From Moritella sp. PE36 (lineage in GTDB: Bacteria > Pseudomonadota > Gammaproteobacteria > Enterobacterales > Moritellaceae): a stretch of 64,000 nucleotides of DNA. The DNA is taken from positions 1-64,000 of the forward strand of contig NZ_ABCQ01000021.1 in the NCBI RefSeq assembly GCF_000170855.1. The letters run 5' to 3'. Numbering within the stretch: the first letter of the stretch is position 1; the number at the start of each line of letters is the position of its first letter. Positions 12,241-45,957 of the stretch are shown piece by piece. Under the pieces are notes generated by a model that was not told where the DNA came from, did no database searches, and worked only from the letters and a program-made list of their open reading frames with translations. Position numbers and translations under genes: made by a program.

Positions 12241-12371
12241 CTTATTGATAAATAGTTATCTGTTTTTTAGAGGCTTGTTAATAAATGGTTATCCGCTGTT
12301 CATGGCTTATTAATAAATAGTTCTCTTCTTTTCAGCGGCTTATTAATAAACAGTTCTCTGCTTTTCAGCGG
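12241..12371. repeat. 33-bp tandem repeat, four units, spanning the 3' end of recO
   Basis: Units at 12241-12273 (33 bp), 12274-12305 (32 bp), 12306-12338 (33 bp) and 12339-12371 (33 bp), each opening CTTATTAATAAA or a close variant. The two units nearest recO are almost identical; the outer two are diverged. The two inner units are in frame inside recO. The recO stop codon (12302-12300) lies in the one-base-short second unit. Confidence 0.9.
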
Positions 12372-13028
12372 CTTGTTGCCCAAATAGGGTAACAACATTT
12401 GTCGACAAAAGCGTTTTGCCGCGGCTAAATTATCTTGGTTAAACTGTCGTTGCTCAAAGGCGAGTAAATCTGCACCTAAAAATGAGTGTCCCACTGCAAC
12501 TTTATAAATAGATGGCACAATCCCAACATGTGGTACGTATTTATACATACGTTCCGGGAACACGGCATCCATGGTATCAGCACAATAGCTTAACGCACCA
12601 ATGTAACCTAAACATTGCATTAAATTAAATTCAAATTCACGCAATAACGGTTCAAGGGGTTGTTGTTTGGCTAACGCTAATAATGCATTTTGATAATGGG
12701 AGAATAGTTCGGGATTCGCTTGTTCACTGGCGAGTAAGCGATAGAGTAATTCATTGAGATAAAAGCTAGCATAGAGATGCCGACCGGAGAGCGGTAATGA
12801 ATTAGATACCGCCTCGACCTGACGCATGGATTTTAATCCACCTTTGCCGGCATAGGCGATATTAAGTAAGGTAAACGGCTGTAAAATTGCACTTTGACTA
12901 TTTTTACGCCCTCGCCCTGCTCGTCCCACTAACGAAATTTTACCATCGTTAATGGTAAAGAAGTCGATGAGTAAACTCGACTCCTTAAAGGGACGACGGT
13001 GCAGTACAAAGGCGTTTTGTAAGTCCAT
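12300..13028 (-). CDS. recO: DNA repair protein RecO with a duplicated C-terminal motif
   Basis: RecO works with RecF and RecR to load RecA onto SSB-coated single-stranded DNA. 242 residues: N-terminal OB fold (FVLHRRPFKESSLLIDFFT, about 8-26) and a helical C-terminal region containing AAAKRFCRQMLLPYLGNKPLKSRELF. The conserved KPLKSRELF end (219-227) is immediately repeated as KPLKRRELF (230-238), because a 33-bp DNA repeat extends the gene. The start at 13028 matches the family (MDLQNAFVLHRRP). It lies 13 bp after era. Confidence 0.93.
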   Translation of the reverse strand: MDLQNAFVLHRRPFKESSLLIDFFTINDGKISLVGRAGRGRKNSQSAILQPFTLLNIAYAGKGGLKSMRQVEAVSNSLPLSGRHLYASFYLNELLYRLLASEQANPELFSHYQNALLALAKQQPLEPLLREFEFNLMQCLGYIGALSYCADTMDAVFPERMYKYVPHVGIVPSIYKVAVGHSFLGADLLAFEQRQFNQDNLAAAKRFCRQMLLPYLGNKPLKSRELFINKPLKRRELFINKP

Positions 13029-40663: not shown

Positions 40664-41806
40664 ATGCCTCCGATAGACTATCAACAACTTACACAAAAAA
40701 TTAAAGTCTGGGGCGCAGAACTTGGTTTCCAACAAGTCGGTATTACCGATACCGATTTATCAACCTACGAACCACATTTCCAAACCTGGTTAGATAATGG
40801 TTATCATGCTGACATGGATTATATGTCGCGTTACGGCACCATGCGTACTCACCCAGAAGAACTTTATCCAGGCACGATCCGCGTTATTTCAGTACGCATG
40901 GATTATCTACCACCCGATGCATTAATGGCGACCACCTTAAAGCAGAAAGACAAAGGTTACATCAGCCGTTATGCCCTCGGGCGTGATTACCATAAAATCA
41001 TCCGCAAACGCCTTAAACACTTAGGCGAAAAAATCAGTGAGCATTGTGAAACGCTCGATGCCCGGCCGTTTGTTGATACCGGCCCTTTACTCGAGCGCCC
41101 GTTAGCCGAAAAAGCCGGATTAGGCTGGACAGGTAAACACTCACTCATTTTAAACAAAGAAGCGGGTTCATGGTTTTTTCTTGGTGAGATATTAATAAAC
41201 TTACCACTACCTGTTGATAAACCTATTGAAAATCAATGTGGTAAATGTACAGCGTGTTTACAGATTTGTCCAACACAAGCCATTGTCGCACCTTACAGCG
41301 TGGATGCTAATCGCTGTATTTCTTATCTGACTATTGAGCTATTTGGCGCTATTCCAGAAGAGTTTCGACCTTTAATCGGTAATCGCATCTACGGTTGTGA
41401 TGATTGCCAGTTGATCTGTCCGTGGAACCGTTTTGCAGCGCTTACCGATGAACAAGACTTTCACCCGCGCTCAAATTTGCATTCGCCCGATCTATTAGCA
41501 CTGTACGCATGGGAAGAAACTTATTTCTTAAAACAGACAGAAGGCTCACCGATCCGTCGCATTGGTCATGAACGTTGGTTGCGGAATATTTCCGTGGCAC
41601 TGGGTAATGCCGCTTATTCAGCAGAAATTGTCGAGGCGTTAGAAACTAAATTTGTTGAAACAACTGAAATGGTGCAAGAGCATATTACCTGGGCGCTACA
41701 ACAGCAACAGGCAAAAGCAGACAACATCATTCCAGTATTACAAATCGATAAGACCAAAGATAAGTTAATCCGCATGATTGAAAAAGCACTGCCACGTGAT
41801 GCCTAA
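40664..41806 (+). CDS. queG: Epoxyqueuosine reductase QueG
   Basis: Cobalamin-dependent iron-sulfur enzyme that reduces epoxyqueuosine to queuosine in tRNA, the last step of Q synthesis. 380 residues (E. coli 379). Two 4Fe-4S motifs are clear: CGKCTACLQICPTQAI and CDDCQLICPW, with a further Cys in DANRCISYLTIE. The C-terminal HEAT-like part ends IEKALPRDA. Divergent from tsaE, as in E. coli. Confidence 0.96.
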   Translation: MPPIDYQQLTQKIKVWGAELGFQQVGITDTDLSTYEPHFQTWLDNGYHADMDYMSRYGTMRTHPEELYPGTIRVISVRMDYLPPDALMATTLKQKDKGYISRYALGRDYHKIIRKRLKHLGEKISEHCETLDARPFVDTGPLLERPLAEKAGLGWTGKHSLILNKEAGSWFFLGEILINLPLPVDKPIENQCGKCTACLQICPTQAIVAPYSVDANRCISYLTIELFGAIPEEFRPLIGNRIYGCDDCQLICPWNRFAALTDEQDFHPRSNLHSPDLLALYAWEETYFLKQTEGSPIRRIGHERWLRNISVALGNAAYSAEIVEALETKFVETTEMVQEHITWALQQQQAKADNIIPVLQIDKTKDKLIRMIEKALPRDA

Positions 41807-41931: not shown

Positions 41932-43263
41932 TTATTTATCAGTATCCATTTTGGCTGTAATAACGTCAGCAGCCGTTTTCTTTTCCAGCTGCTCAGTTTC
42001 CCATTTTTTTGCTTTATGGATCAAGCCAGTAATACTTGAGCCTTGTACCAAAATTGAAAACACCACCACTGAGTAAGTCATCACCAAAATAATTTCTCGA
42101 ACATCAATGTTCTTTTCTGGAATAATAAATACCCCAGCCGGAATTGCTAACGCCATTGCCAGCGCTAAACCGCCACGTAATCCCCCCCAAGTCAGGATCG
42201 TCACAGACAATGGGTTGTAACTGCGGAAACGGTTAAAGAAGAGATAAGAGAATTTCACACTTAAATAACGTGCGACCAATACCAATGGAATAGCAAATAC
42301 CATCAAGATCCAATCTTCTTTGTGGAAGCTAAACAACAACATAGCCATACCGATCAGCAAGAATAGAATACCATTTAAGAATTCATCGACTAATTCCCAA
42401 AAGTGATCCAAGTGGTACTCACTTTCTGGCGAGAAGCCTTTTTGACGCGTCCAGTTACCAATCATAATTCCGGCAACGACCATGGCTAATGGACCAGAAA
42501 CATCGATCACGTCAGCAAATACATAACCCGCGGTTGGGATAGCAATGGTCAGTAATAATTCCATTGAGTGATCATTGGTCGAACTGATTAGATAATGGAA
42601 TACTAAACCAAGTACCAGCCCATAGATGATGCCACCAATCGCTTCATGCATGAATAGCTGGGCCACACTGCTCACGGTTGGCGCTTCACTACCAAATGCC
42701 ACCGAAAACAGGGTCATAAAGATCACCAAACCAAAACCATCATTAAATAATGACTCACCTTCGATTTGCGTAGAGATACGCTGTGGGGCATCCAGGTTCT
42801 TAACAATCGCCAGTACAGCAATCGGATCGGTGGGCGAAATAAGCGAACCAAAGAGTAGACAGTAAATGAAGTCTAATGGAATACCGACTAGCTGACAAAA
42901 ACCCCATAACACCCCACCAATAAAGGCGGTTGAGAATAAGGTGGCAACAAGCGCCAAGACCGTAATTTCCCACTTTTGGTCTTTCATGTGTGCCAATTTA
43001 ATGCCTAAACCACCGGCAAACAAGAGGAAACCCAGGATGCCTTTTAATAAAAAGCTTTCGAAATTGATATTATTTAATTGCTCTGTAGCAATGGCCTCTA
43101 AATGAAACCAGCCACTTTGACCTGCAATCACAATACCTAAAGACAGTATTATTGATCCCGCAGTTATCGCAACTGTAGTTTGCATTTTGCCAATTTTGCT
43201 ATTAATAAATGCAATAAAAATGGCAATTGCACCGAGAAAACATAAGGTACTGTATACCGACAT
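41932..43263 (-). CDS. CPA1-family cation:proton antiporter (NhaP-like)
   Basis: Probable Na+(or K+)/H+ exchanger of the inner membrane. About 443 residues with a dozen hydrophobic segments and a short charged cytoplasmic tail. The CPA1 core includes FGSLISPTDPIAVLAIVKNL, the ion-site-like ESLFNDGFGLVIFM, and LTWGGLRGGLALAMALAIP. The start ATG at 43263 has GAGG just upstream; a TTG four codons earlier is also in frame. The substrate ion cannot be told from sequence. It lies between queG and the tRNA array, a region variable between species. Confidence 0.88.
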   Translation of the reverse strand: MSVYSTLCFLGAIAIFIAFINSKIGKMQTTVAITAGSIILSLGIVIAGQSGWFHLEAIATEQLNNINFESFLLKGILGFLLFAGGLGIKLAHMKDQKWEITVLALVATLFSTAFIGGVLWGFCQLVGIPLDFIYCLLFGSLISPTDPIAVLAIVKNLDAPQRISTQIEGESLFNDGFGLVIFMTLFSVAFGSEAPTVSSVAQLFMHEAIGGIIYGLVLGLVFHYLISSTNDHSMELLLTIAIPTAGYVFADVIDVSGPLAMVVAGIMIGNWTRQKGFSPESEYHLDHFWELVDEFLNGILFLLIGMAMLLFSFHKEDWILMVFAIPLVLVARYLSVKFSYLFFNRFRSYNPLSVTILTWGGLRGGLALAMALAIPAGVFIIPEKNIDVREIILVMTYSVVVFSILVQGSSITGLIHKAKKWETEQLEKKTAADVITAKMDTDK

Positions 43264-43457
43264 GCTAAACCTCAAATTGGGGGAGTGTAGTTATAATAAC
43301 TAAGGATAGTTTTGTGGGCTACACAATGTTCCTGTTGCTATAAAAAATCAAGCTTTTTGAGCCATATAGCCAGCCCCAATTCGAAATAGAATTAAAACTC
43401 TACCGTTATGTCAAAATGATATATAAATGTAGAATTTGCGCGCTTTAAAAAGCGCTA

Positions 43458-43949
43458 TTAACGTTTTTTAGGTACCCAGGCCCAGATAAATTCAGCATTA
43501 ATTGGCTCATTGCCTTCACTGTCCGTGATCACGACAGGTACCGATATATCACCTTTTTCAGTATCACGAATATGCTTGATCTGCTCGTCACTGAGTGTGG
43601 CAACCGCAGTTAAATCACCCGCAGCACGGCGAACATAATCGATATTCATATTTTTTAATAATGGAATACGGTTGTCGGGTACATGCATAGCAATTAAAAA
43701 ACCCGTCGCAGACTCGCCAAGTAACGCCATTGCCGCGGCATGGATACCACCAATATGATTTTGCACGCGTTTACGGTTTTTTAAGCTAAGTTTAGAGCCA
43801 GAAAAATCTAATTTTTCGACACGTACTTTTGACGTGCCAGCAAATTTAATAACTTTGCCAAATACTAACGACAATGCAGGGGCATGGCAGCCTTTTGGAA
43901 GTAGCGTTACTTTCTTAACGATTTTACTGAGTTTATTTTCGGCTTTCAT
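43458..43949 (-). CDS. DUF4442-like hot-dog fold protein
   Basis: 163 residues from the ATG at 43949, which has AAGGA five bases upstream; an upstream TTG is a weaker choice. The region KNRKRVQNHIGGIHAAAMALLGESATG has the HxGxxHAxAxxxLxE look of hot-dog thioesterases and YiiD/DUF4442 proteins, and the protein has no signal or membrane segment. Thioesterase activity is only an inference. Alone between the antiporter and the tRNA array. Confidence 0.75.
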   Translation of the reverse strand: MKAENKLSKIVKKVTLLPKGCHAPALSLVFGKVIKFAGTSKVRVEKLDFSGSKLSLKNRKRVQNHIGGIHAAAMALLGESATGFLIAMHVPDNRIPLLKNMNIDYVRRAAGDLTAVATLSDEQIKHIRDTEKGDISVPVVITDSEGNEPINAEFIWAWVPKKR

Positions 43950-44110
43950 ATCAATCCTTGAAGTTATATTAGTTTCCAAAACAAATACTTAACTTAGCTT
44001 ATCTTAATCTAGGCAGAAAGCAGTAAGTGACTAAGTACTATAACATTGATTAAATAAGTGCTATTGGTCTAAATGACATGGGCGTAGAATTAACGGTAAT
44101 GAGTGGATAG

Positions 44111-44152
44111 ATTTTAGATTTTAGATTTTAGATTTTAAATTTTAAATTTTAA
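44111..44152. repeat. Six-unit heptamer repeat
   Basis: Three perfect ATTTTAG units (44111-44131) followed by three ATTTTAA units (44132-44152). It lies downstream of the last tRNA-Gly gene. Period 7 is out of step with codons and no gene covers it. It is a likely slippage hot spot. Confidence 0.9.
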
Positions 44153-44212
44153 AATAATGGGAGTAGTAAATAAAGAGAGAGTAAAGAGATAATAAAGAGA
44201 TAAGGAAGAAAT

Positions 44213-44288
44213 TGGAGCGGTACAAGAGGCTCGAACTCTTGACCTCAACCTTGGCAAGGTTGCGCTCTACCAACTGAGCTAGTACCGC
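44213..44288 (-). tRNA. tRNA-Gly(GCC), copy 8 of 8 in transcription order
   Basis: 76 nt including encoded CCA. Reverse strand begins GCGGTACTAGCTCAGTTGG; anticodon loop CTTGCCAAG gives anticodon GCC; T-arm GAGTTCGAGCCTC; 3' end TACCGCTCCA. The acceptor stem pairs GCGGTAC with GTACCGC. Last gene of the array. Confidence 0.98.
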
Positions 44289-44361
44289 TTCGTTTTGCTT
44301 TTTTGTCATAAAACAGAGTTTCACAACTGTATCTCAATCATCATGGTATGAAGAAAGAAAT

Positions 44362-44437
44362 TGGAGCGGTACAAGAGGCTCGAACTCTTGACCTCAACCT
44401 TGGCAAGGTTGCGCTCTACCAACTGAGCTAGTACCGC
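44362..44437 (-). tRNA. tRNA-Gly(GCC), copy 7
   Basis: Identical over all 76 nt to the other members; GCC anticodon, encoded CCA. The 73-bp spacer to the next copy downstream belongs to the class ending ATCATGGTATGAAGAAAG. Confidence 0.98.
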
Positions 44438-44499
44438 TTCGGTCTGATTTAAAGTTTCAGGAACTGTATCTGTCTACTCATTGGTGTGAGAAGAGAGAT

Positions 44500-44575
44500 T
44501 GGAGCGGTACAAGAGGCTCGAACTCTTGACCTCAACCTTGGCAAGGTTGCGCTCTACCAACTGAGCTAGTACCGC
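44500..44575 (-). tRNA. tRNA-Gly(GCC), copy 6
   Basis: Identical 76-nt gene with encoded CCA. Its downstream spacer (62 bp) shares GATTTAAAGTTTCAGGAACT with the spacer between copies 5 and 6. Confidence 0.98.
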
Positions 44576-44647
44576 ATCTGTCTGATTTAAAGTTTCAGGA
44601 ACTATTCGATTTATTCGAGTGAATGAACATTCAAACAAATCTGAATT

Positions 44648-44723
44648 TGGAGCGGTACAAGAGGCTCGAACTCTTGACCTCAACCTTGGCAAGGTTGCGC
44701 TCTACCAACTGAGCTAGTACCGC
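44648..44723 (-). tRNA. tRNA-Gly(GCC), copy 5
   Basis: Identical 76-nt gene with encoded CCA. Its 72-bp downstream spacer ends (forward strand) ACATTCAAACAAATCTGAAT, the same ending as the spacer between copies 2 and 3. Confidence 0.98.
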
Positions 44724-44783
44724 TTCATTTTGATTTAGAGTTTCTCAACTGTATCTCAATCATCATGGTATGAAGAAAGAAAT

Positions 44784-44859
44784 TGGAGCGGTACAAGAGG
44801 CTCGAACTCTTGACCTCAACCTTGGCAAGGTTGCGCTCTACCAACTGAGCTAGTACCGC
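44784..44859 (-). tRNA. tRNA-Gly(GCC), copy 4
   Basis: Identical 76-nt gene with encoded CCA. The 60-bp spacers on its two sides differ from each other at only a few positions. Confidence 0.98.
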
Positions 44860-44919
44860 TTCATTTTGATTTATAGTTTCTCAACTGCATTTCTATCATC
44901 ATGGTATGAAGAAAGAAAT

Positions 44920-44995
44920 TGGAGCGGTACAAGAGGCTCGAACTCTTGACCTCAACCTTGGCAAGGTTGCGCTCTACCAACTGAGCTAGTACCGC
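44920..44995 (-). tRNA. tRNA-Gly(GCC), copy 3
   Basis: Identical 76-nt gene with encoded CCA. Confidence 0.98.
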
Positions 44996-45066
44996 TTCGT
45001 TTTGATTTAAAGTTTCTCAACTATTCGACTCACTCAAATGAATTAACATTCAAACAAATCTGAATT

Positions 45067-45142
45067 TGGAGCGGTACAAGAGGCTCGAACTCTTGACCTC
45101 AACCTTGGCAAGGTTGCGCTCTACCAACTGAGCTAGTACCGC
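45067..45142 (-). tRNA. tRNA-Gly(GCC), copy 2
   Basis: Identical 76-nt gene with encoded CCA. The spacer to copy 1 is the shortest (33 bp) and is unrelated to the others. Confidence 0.98.
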
Positions 45143-45175
45143 TTTGATATTCTATTTGGTATTCTAAGATAAGAT

Positions 45176-45251
45176 TGGAGCGGTACAAGAGGCTCGAACT
45201 CTTGACCTCAACCTTGGCAAGGTTGCGCTCTACCAACTGAGCTAGTACCGC
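45176..45251 (-). tRNA. tRNA-Gly(GCC), copy 1 (promoter-proximal)
   Basis: Identical 76-nt gene with encoded CCA. It follows a strong predicted promoter by 20 bp. E. coli has three tRNA-Gly(GCC) genes (glyV, glyX, glyY) at the same place, between queG and orn. Confidence 0.98.
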
Positions 45252-45270
45252 ATCTCATCTTAGGTGCCGA

Positions 45271-45298
45271 ATTATATAGAACCGACTGGTTTTTGCAA
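45271..45298 (-). promoter_or_regulatory. Predicted promoter of the tRNA-Gly array
   Basis: On the reverse strand TTGCAA (45298-45293), 16 bp, and TATAAT (45276-45271). The discriminator reads TCGGCACC, moderately GC-rich, as often seen at stringently controlled stable-RNA promoters. No comparable pair of boxes is obvious in the spacers, so one transcript for all eight is likely. Confidence 0.75.
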
Positions 45299-45390: not shown

Positions 45391-45957
45391 TTAAATTTTA
45401 AACATATGTTGGCGATAATGCTGTAATTCACCAATTGATTCACGAATATCATCCAATGCTAAATGCAAACCTTGTTTGTGAAAACTCGATACAACCTCAG
45501 GGCACCAACGGCGACCTAATTCTTTAATCGTGCTCACATCGACATTACGGTAGTGAAAATAATCATTTAATTCCGTCATATATTTCACTAAGAAACGACG
45601 ATCTTGGCCAATACTGTTACCACATAATGGTGATTTACCAGCTGGAACCCACTTGTGTAAGAATGCTAATGTTTGCTCAACAGCCTCTTTTTCAGTGACT
45701 TCACTCGCCAATACCCGTTTAACTAGACCTGAATTAGTGTGATGCGTTGTGCACCACTCATCCATCTTATCAAGTTCCGCTTTATCTTGATGAATAGCGA
45801 GTACAGGTCCTTCTGCAAGAATGTTCAGTTCACTATCCGTAACGATAGTGGCAATTTCAATGATCAGACATTTTTCTGGATCAAGACCGGTCATTTCTAA
45901 GTCAATCCAAACTAAATTATTTTCATTAAATTGCGTTGCATTGTCGGCAAGTGGCAT
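45391..45957 (-). CDS. orn: Oligoribonuclease
   Basis: Essential 3'-5' exoribonuclease that degrades dinucleotides such as pGpG, the product of c-di-GMP breakdown. 188 residues. DEDDh motifs: [10 protein letters not shown] (Exo I), [11 protein letters not shown] (Exo II) and [14 protein letters not shown] (Exo III). Divergent from rsgA, as in E. coli, and downstream of nothing on its own strand. Functionally linked to the HD-GYP enzyme earlier in the window. Confidence 0.97.

Follow-up and report, generated by a model that had tools for sequence, protein, structure and literature searches.

Escherichia coli K-12 carries three tandem tRNA-Gly(GCC) genes, glyV, glyX and glyY, after orn, separated by spacers of ~35 nt which both contain a hairpin and in which an unpaired AAATTTGAAA stretch follows the CCA. 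RNase E cuts E. coli tRNA precursors in the stretch just after the CCA. The glyVXY precursor is cleaved by this enzyme only where a single-stranded region is accessible and a tRNA lies next to it; for the argX-hisR precursor, a terminator or simple stem-loop could take the place of the neighbouring tRNA (PMC3985628, PMC9841416). Here we describe an array of tRNA-Gly(GCC) genes in the marine bacterium Moritella sp. PE36, located in a stretch of 64,000 nt (contig NZ_ABCQ01000021.1 of assembly GCF_000170855.1, positions 1 to 64,000, forward strand) which we refer to as the window. The array is like glyV-glyX-glyY in its gene, its orn neighbour, its tandem copies and its spacer hairpins, but it has eight copies, spacers of 33-73 nt, and hairpins that are flush with the CCA. 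With a probability of roughly 85% we read it as orthologous to the E. coli glyVXY operon and enlarged by recombination; it is an ordinary known operon, expanded, and the spacer hairpins and their flush position are the new part.

Two other described arrangements are related. Vibrionaceae have orn-linked Gly(GCC)/Met(CAU) arrays at the same locus, with up to 8 or more Gly copies and with hairpin spacers, but these usually alternate with tRNA-Met(CAU) and their spacer sequences are unrelated to those of Moritella. The tRNA array units of Firmicutes and Mycobacterium (PMC5966550) are also dense runs of tRNA genes, whereas the Moritella array repeats one isoacceptor. We found no direct account of bacterial tandem tRNA-Gly arrays or of Moritella tRNA arrays in the literature searched, the coverage of which was incomplete.

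An orn-linked array of eight tRNA-Gly(GCC) genes

The array and its upstream neighbour are arranged as follows, with the tRNA genes numbered in transcription order.

45391..45957, minus strand: orn (oligoribonuclease), the upstream neighbour as in E. coli (open reading frame (ORF), orthologues, E. coli gene order)
44213..45251, minus strand: eight-gene tRNA-Gly(GCC) array (ARAGORN, Rfam RF00005, 100% identity)
45176-45251, minus strand: tRNA-Gly(GCC) 1
45067-45142, minus strand: tRNA-Gly(GCC) 2
44920-44995, minus strand: tRNA-Gly(GCC) 3
44784-44859, minus strand: tRNA-Gly(GCC) 4
44648-44723, minus strand: tRNA-Gly(GCC) 5
44500-44575, minus strand: tRNA-Gly(GCC) 6
44362-44437, minus strand: tRNA-Gly(GCC) 7
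44213-44288, minus strand: tRNA-Gly(GCC) 8

ARAGORN calls eight tRNA-Gly(gcc) genes on the minus strand between 44213 and 45251, all eight score an identical 67.2 bits against Rfam RF00005, and the copies are 100% identical across 76 nt, in agreement with a sequence-only reading of the window that had counted eight identical genes. The lengths which it gave for the spacers (73, 62, 72, 60, 60, 71 and 33 bp in coordinate order) were the same on re-measurement, the motifs which it quoted as common to the B spacers and to the A spacers are present, and its figure of three such genes in E. coli is that of K-12. The genes are thus tandem tRNA-Gly(GCC) genes lying directly downstream of orn on the same strand, the arrangement of a glyVXY-type operon. 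No further full-length tRNA-Gly(GCC) copy is present in the genome from which the window comes, the other matches being partial, with 77-84% identity.

With 131 contigs the assembly is a draft, and in other drafts from Moritella and Vibrio the array is interrupted by contig ends or gaps, such that the eight copies might be suspected of being an assembly product. We consider this highly improbable, as the seven spacers are all different, near-complete genomes of relatives carry 5 to 10 copies, and a collapse would reduce the count rather than increase it. Because all seven spacers differ, the order of the copies is fixed, and eight is best taken as a minimum, as a perfectly repeated unit could be collapsed in a draft.

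Copy number in relatives

Ten other Moritella species (genomes G001 to G010) carry an orn-linked tRNA-Gly(GCC) array. Among the near-complete genomes (1-3 contigs) there are five copies in G009, six in G010, nine in G002, and ten in both G007 and G008; the draft genomes G001 and G004 have eight each, and the G003, G005 and G006 assemblies are gapped at the array. Over 90 genomes of the order, tRNA-Gly(GCC) matches number 0-12 per genome at the cut-off used, with the top numbers in Moritella and in family f18 (which has arrays resembling those of Vibrio); counts in two further families go up to 9. In two Moritella genomes examined, tRNA matches of all kinds number 113 and 142.

A tRNA-Gly(GCC) gene stands beside orn in E. 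coli K-12, in all Moritella, and in many Vibrio, where the arrays at this locus are similar in length to those of Moritella or longer, and several draft contigs end within the array. The Gly(GCC)/Met(CAT) alternation at orn reaches up to about seven pairs in Vibrio and relatives (L037, L043, L052, L072, L075, L079). Some spacers at L027, L068 and L069 contain degenerate tRNA-Gly remnants, which suggests gene death besides duplication in such arrays.

Spacer classes and the history of the array

The seven spacers are listed below in transcription order, with identities to their nearest relatives; spacers of other species are labelled by genome (as in G004.6).

45143..45175, minus strand: spacer 1, class D, 33 nt; 0.91 identity to G007.1, G008.1 and G009.1
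44996..45066, minus strand: spacer 2 (B1), class B, 71 nt; hairpin of ~18 bp, AGTT-GAGA-AACT hairpin, single-stranded leader; nearest G004.6 (0.96)
44860..44919, minus strand: spacer 3 (A1), class A, 60 nt; imperfect CCA-flush hairpin and AGTT-GAGA-AACT hairpin; nearest spacer 4 of the same array (0.93)
44724..44783, minus strand: spacer 4 (A2), class A, 60 nt; nearest G001.3 (0.95), then spacer 3 of the same array (0.93)
44576..44647, minus strand: spacer 5 (B2), class B, 72 nt; long hairpin, CCTGA-type second module; nearest G003.3a (0.99)
44438..44499, minus strand: spacer 6, class C, 62 nt; nearest G008.7 (0.97), best match within the array 0.74
44289..44361, minus strand: spacer 7 (A3), with a class A 5' half identical to that of spacer 4 and a longer 3' half related to G002.5

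The order in the direction of transcription is D-B-A-A-B-C-A, and this, together with the hairpin arm common to B1 and B2 and the identical 5' halves of A2 and A3, speaks for a single duplication of a three-gene block in this lineage, [B A A] being copied to [B C A], as the sequence-only reading had proposed. We assessed this by nearest-neighbour identity among the spacers of the array and those of other Moritella species. B1 and B2 are 0.82 identical, B1 being nearer to G004.6 and B2 to G003.3a, and spacer C reaches no more than 0.74 to any spacer of its own array, so that B1, B2 and C are each nearer to spacers of other species than to one another. The blocks [B1 A1 A2] and [B2 C A3] fail to match position by position. 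The spacer order differs in every species, and a B-x-x-B-x layout also occurs in G001, G004 and G008, where the B subtypes are ordered differently. Growth by duplication and the related spacer classes stand from the earlier proposal, and a recent duplication of a three-gene block is rejected by the spacer comparison; we regard it as very unlikely. A block may have been duplicated earlier, before the species diverged, but the array of the window cannot show this.

The tRNA is invariant across the genus, whereas the spacers vary and their classes are permuted among species. As B1, B2 and C match other-species spacers best, the comparison points to classes that are older than these species or have been exchanged between them, and to a reshuffled order. 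Only the A spacers look recently duplicated within the array. The class D spacer is orthologous in most Moritella species and is first in the array wherever it is present. Beyond the first, every spacer combines a 5' half of class A, B, C or E with a 3' half in which all of them are homologous. By its 3' half B1 falls with A1 and A2, and B2 falls with C, such that neighbours of different class share 3' halves. The two halves of one spacer thus have different histories, which also speaks against the block duplication, and a mosaic of this kind is what recombination within the common segments should produce. Copy number and spacer order have plausibly changed by unequal recombination and gene conversion, with the 76-bp tRNA genes, which are identical, and the common 3' halves of the spacers as substrates, as these patterns suggest.

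Two other origins were considered and rejected. The B spacer and the 3' module match only these arrays among 11 genomes, which argues against a mobile or dispersed element, and the sole lead to a phage origin is a phage record in which one tRNA region of 85 bp is 86% identical, and nothing more.

Hairpins in the spacers

Moritella spacers other than the first typically contain a hairpin starting at base 1 or 2 after the CCA, a small hairpin, and a single-stranded leader of ~15 nt. The small hairpin (AGTT-loop-AACT) is found in 41 of 42 distinct spacers, with loops of GAGA (21), CCTGA (9), ACTGA (4), GAAG (3), GTGA (2), GCGA (1) and GCTGA (1), and the loop is of the GNRA type (GAGA, GTGA, GCGA) in 24 of the 42. 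The small hairpin is not always part of the minimum-energy fold, and with a CCTGA or ACTGA loop the program prefers another pairing. The mean folding z of the 42 distinct spacers is -1.90 relative to dinucleotide shuffles. Compensatory changes exceed chance in the E class, which is found in relatives and is absent from the window: its 12-bp hairpin has 98.1% of cells paired, with 10 cells changed on both sides in four pairs, and covariation as high was seen in 0 of 500 shuffles. This level of compensatory change was not seen in B or A/C, although the 18-bp hairpin of the B class is 94.4% paired, compared with 16-56% when slid.

Hairpins are also present in the spacers of other Moritella arrays (Met-Val-Lys, Asn x 11, and Phe-Thr) and, over Moritella, Vibrio and E. 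coli together, in those of most of the further tRNA arrays tested. Arrays of Met(CAT)-Val(TAC)-Lys(TTT) repeat units, with 8 to 17 tRNA genes and hairpin spacers, were observed at L086, L087 (G000:C104, G000:C127), L090 and L093 (G008), and eleven tandem tRNA-Asn(GTT) genes at L091 (G008:C1:1642800-1644900), where most of the spacers are near-identical, 47 nt long, and hairpin-forming. Vibrio spacers have a mean z of -3.8 between Met and Gly genes (Met>Gly) and -3.07 between Gly genes (Gly>Gly). A free stretch of ~6-11 nt usually lies between the CCA and the hairpin in the E. coli and Vibrio spacers shown, whereas there is none in the Moritella Gly array.

Mutation by templated correction of quasipalindromes is well established. 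As nearly all of the spacers are imperfect palindromes and clear compensatory changes occur in one class only, the palindromes might be maintained at the DNA level, through quasipalindrome correction in replication or as recombination hot spots, rather than for an RNA function, with the paired changes arising by templated mutation. We think this unlikely, as the hairpin, the small and often GNRA-looped hairpin, and the leader are ordered on the transcribed strand, hairpin spacers of unrelated sequence recur in Vibrio and E. coli, and the Arg arrays mostly lack hairpin spacers. A role for the hairpins as insulators against misfolding is unsupported, in that identical tRNAs pair together in tRNA-spacer-tRNA folds with or without a spacer hairpin.

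Promoter, trailer and neighbouring genes

The elements flanking the array are as follows.

45271..45298, minus strand: promoter TTGCAA-16-TATAAT with GC-rich discriminator TCGGC (sequence scan, 10/12; predicted activity)
44143..44212, minus strand: trailer after the last tRNA, 70 nt with 0 G and 16 C, putatively like a rho-dependent terminator (composition)
44108..44151, minus strand: 7-bp microsatellite, 6.3 copies, downstream of the array
43458-43979, downstream of the array: hotdog-like ORF (named by sequence inspection)
41932-43275, downstream of the array: antiporter-like ORF (named by sequence inspection)
40664-41806, downstream of the array: queG-like ORF (named by sequence inspection)

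Of the sigma-70 matches in the region, TTGCAA-16-TATAAT scores highest (10 of 12 positions), and the match, the 16-nt spacer and the TCGGC discriminator are kept in 11 of 11 Moritella genomes. A single promoter at this position, as proposed in the sequence-only reading, would probably drive all eight genes. The 70-nt trailer has 0 to 4 G in all Moritella species compared, and its lack of G suggests a rho-type end to transcription; a sequence scan of the spacers and of the stretch following the array found no intrinsic terminator. Several other Moritella species have similar short repeats at the matching place, with units (for instance AAATCTAC or AAATCCA) and copy numbers that vary.

At 94-99% identity, the orn protein matches those of ten other Moritella genomes, which places the window in this genus; as in E. 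coli K-12, rsgA diverges from orn. The genes that follow differ, being yjeV and queG in E. coli, whereas in the window the hotdog-like and antiporter-like ORFs come before queG. Elsewhere in the window there is a 33-bp tandem repeat (12241-12374; 4.1 copies, 81% matches).

Discussion

As an orthologue of glyVXY, the array would be a stable-RNA operon downstream of orn that is transcribed into one long precursor with eight identical tRNA-Gly(GCC), and the eight copies would give a higher dosage of the tRNA reading GGC and GGU. With its hairpin flush with the CCA or adjoining it, its small hairpin and its A-rich single-stranded leader, the spacer layout would most likely serve to expose unpaired sites between folded elements to RNase E, which, with RNase P for the 5' ends, would cut the precursor into single tRNAs. 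The leader and the stem-loops are of the kind that the published E. coli requirements for RNase E call for. Transcription would probably stop at the G-free, rho-type trailer. For a role of the spacer hairpins in RNase E cleavage we judge the case to be evenly balanced.

Several observations weigh against this reading. Two of the window's own spacers fold barely better than shuffles (z -0.16 and -0.57), the B class hairpin shows wobble changes only, with no compensatory changes, and the A/C hairpins, which make up much of the window's array, are imperfect and have covariation that is not significant. The spacers of the Arg(ACG) array in Moritella are mostly not hairpin-rich, and hairpins are therefore not required in every tRNA array. 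The E. coli scheme is not transferable unchanged because the first hairpin pairs the stretch just after the CCA. Moreover, the single precursor, the RNase E cleavage and the rho termination are steps that we infer for Moritella.

Because a hairpin at base 1-2 after the CCA leaves no free stretch for RNase E, maturation of the Moritella Gly arrays could conceivably run in another order, with the leader being cut before the next tRNA and an exonuclease then removing the hairpin. The CCA-flush hairpin would in that case be a gate on 3' maturation, and the arrays would evolve by swapping hairpin cassettes. We put this forward tentatively and consider it doubtful.

Short-read assemblies often break at this locus, and copy numbers from drafts are therefore unreliable. 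The locus is a natural series for change in tRNA gene dosage, with 3 copies in E. coli, 5-10 in Moritella, and 8 or more in some Vibrio, and its spacers suggest that hairpin separators are common in long tRNA precursors, which bears on how RNase E chooses its sites.
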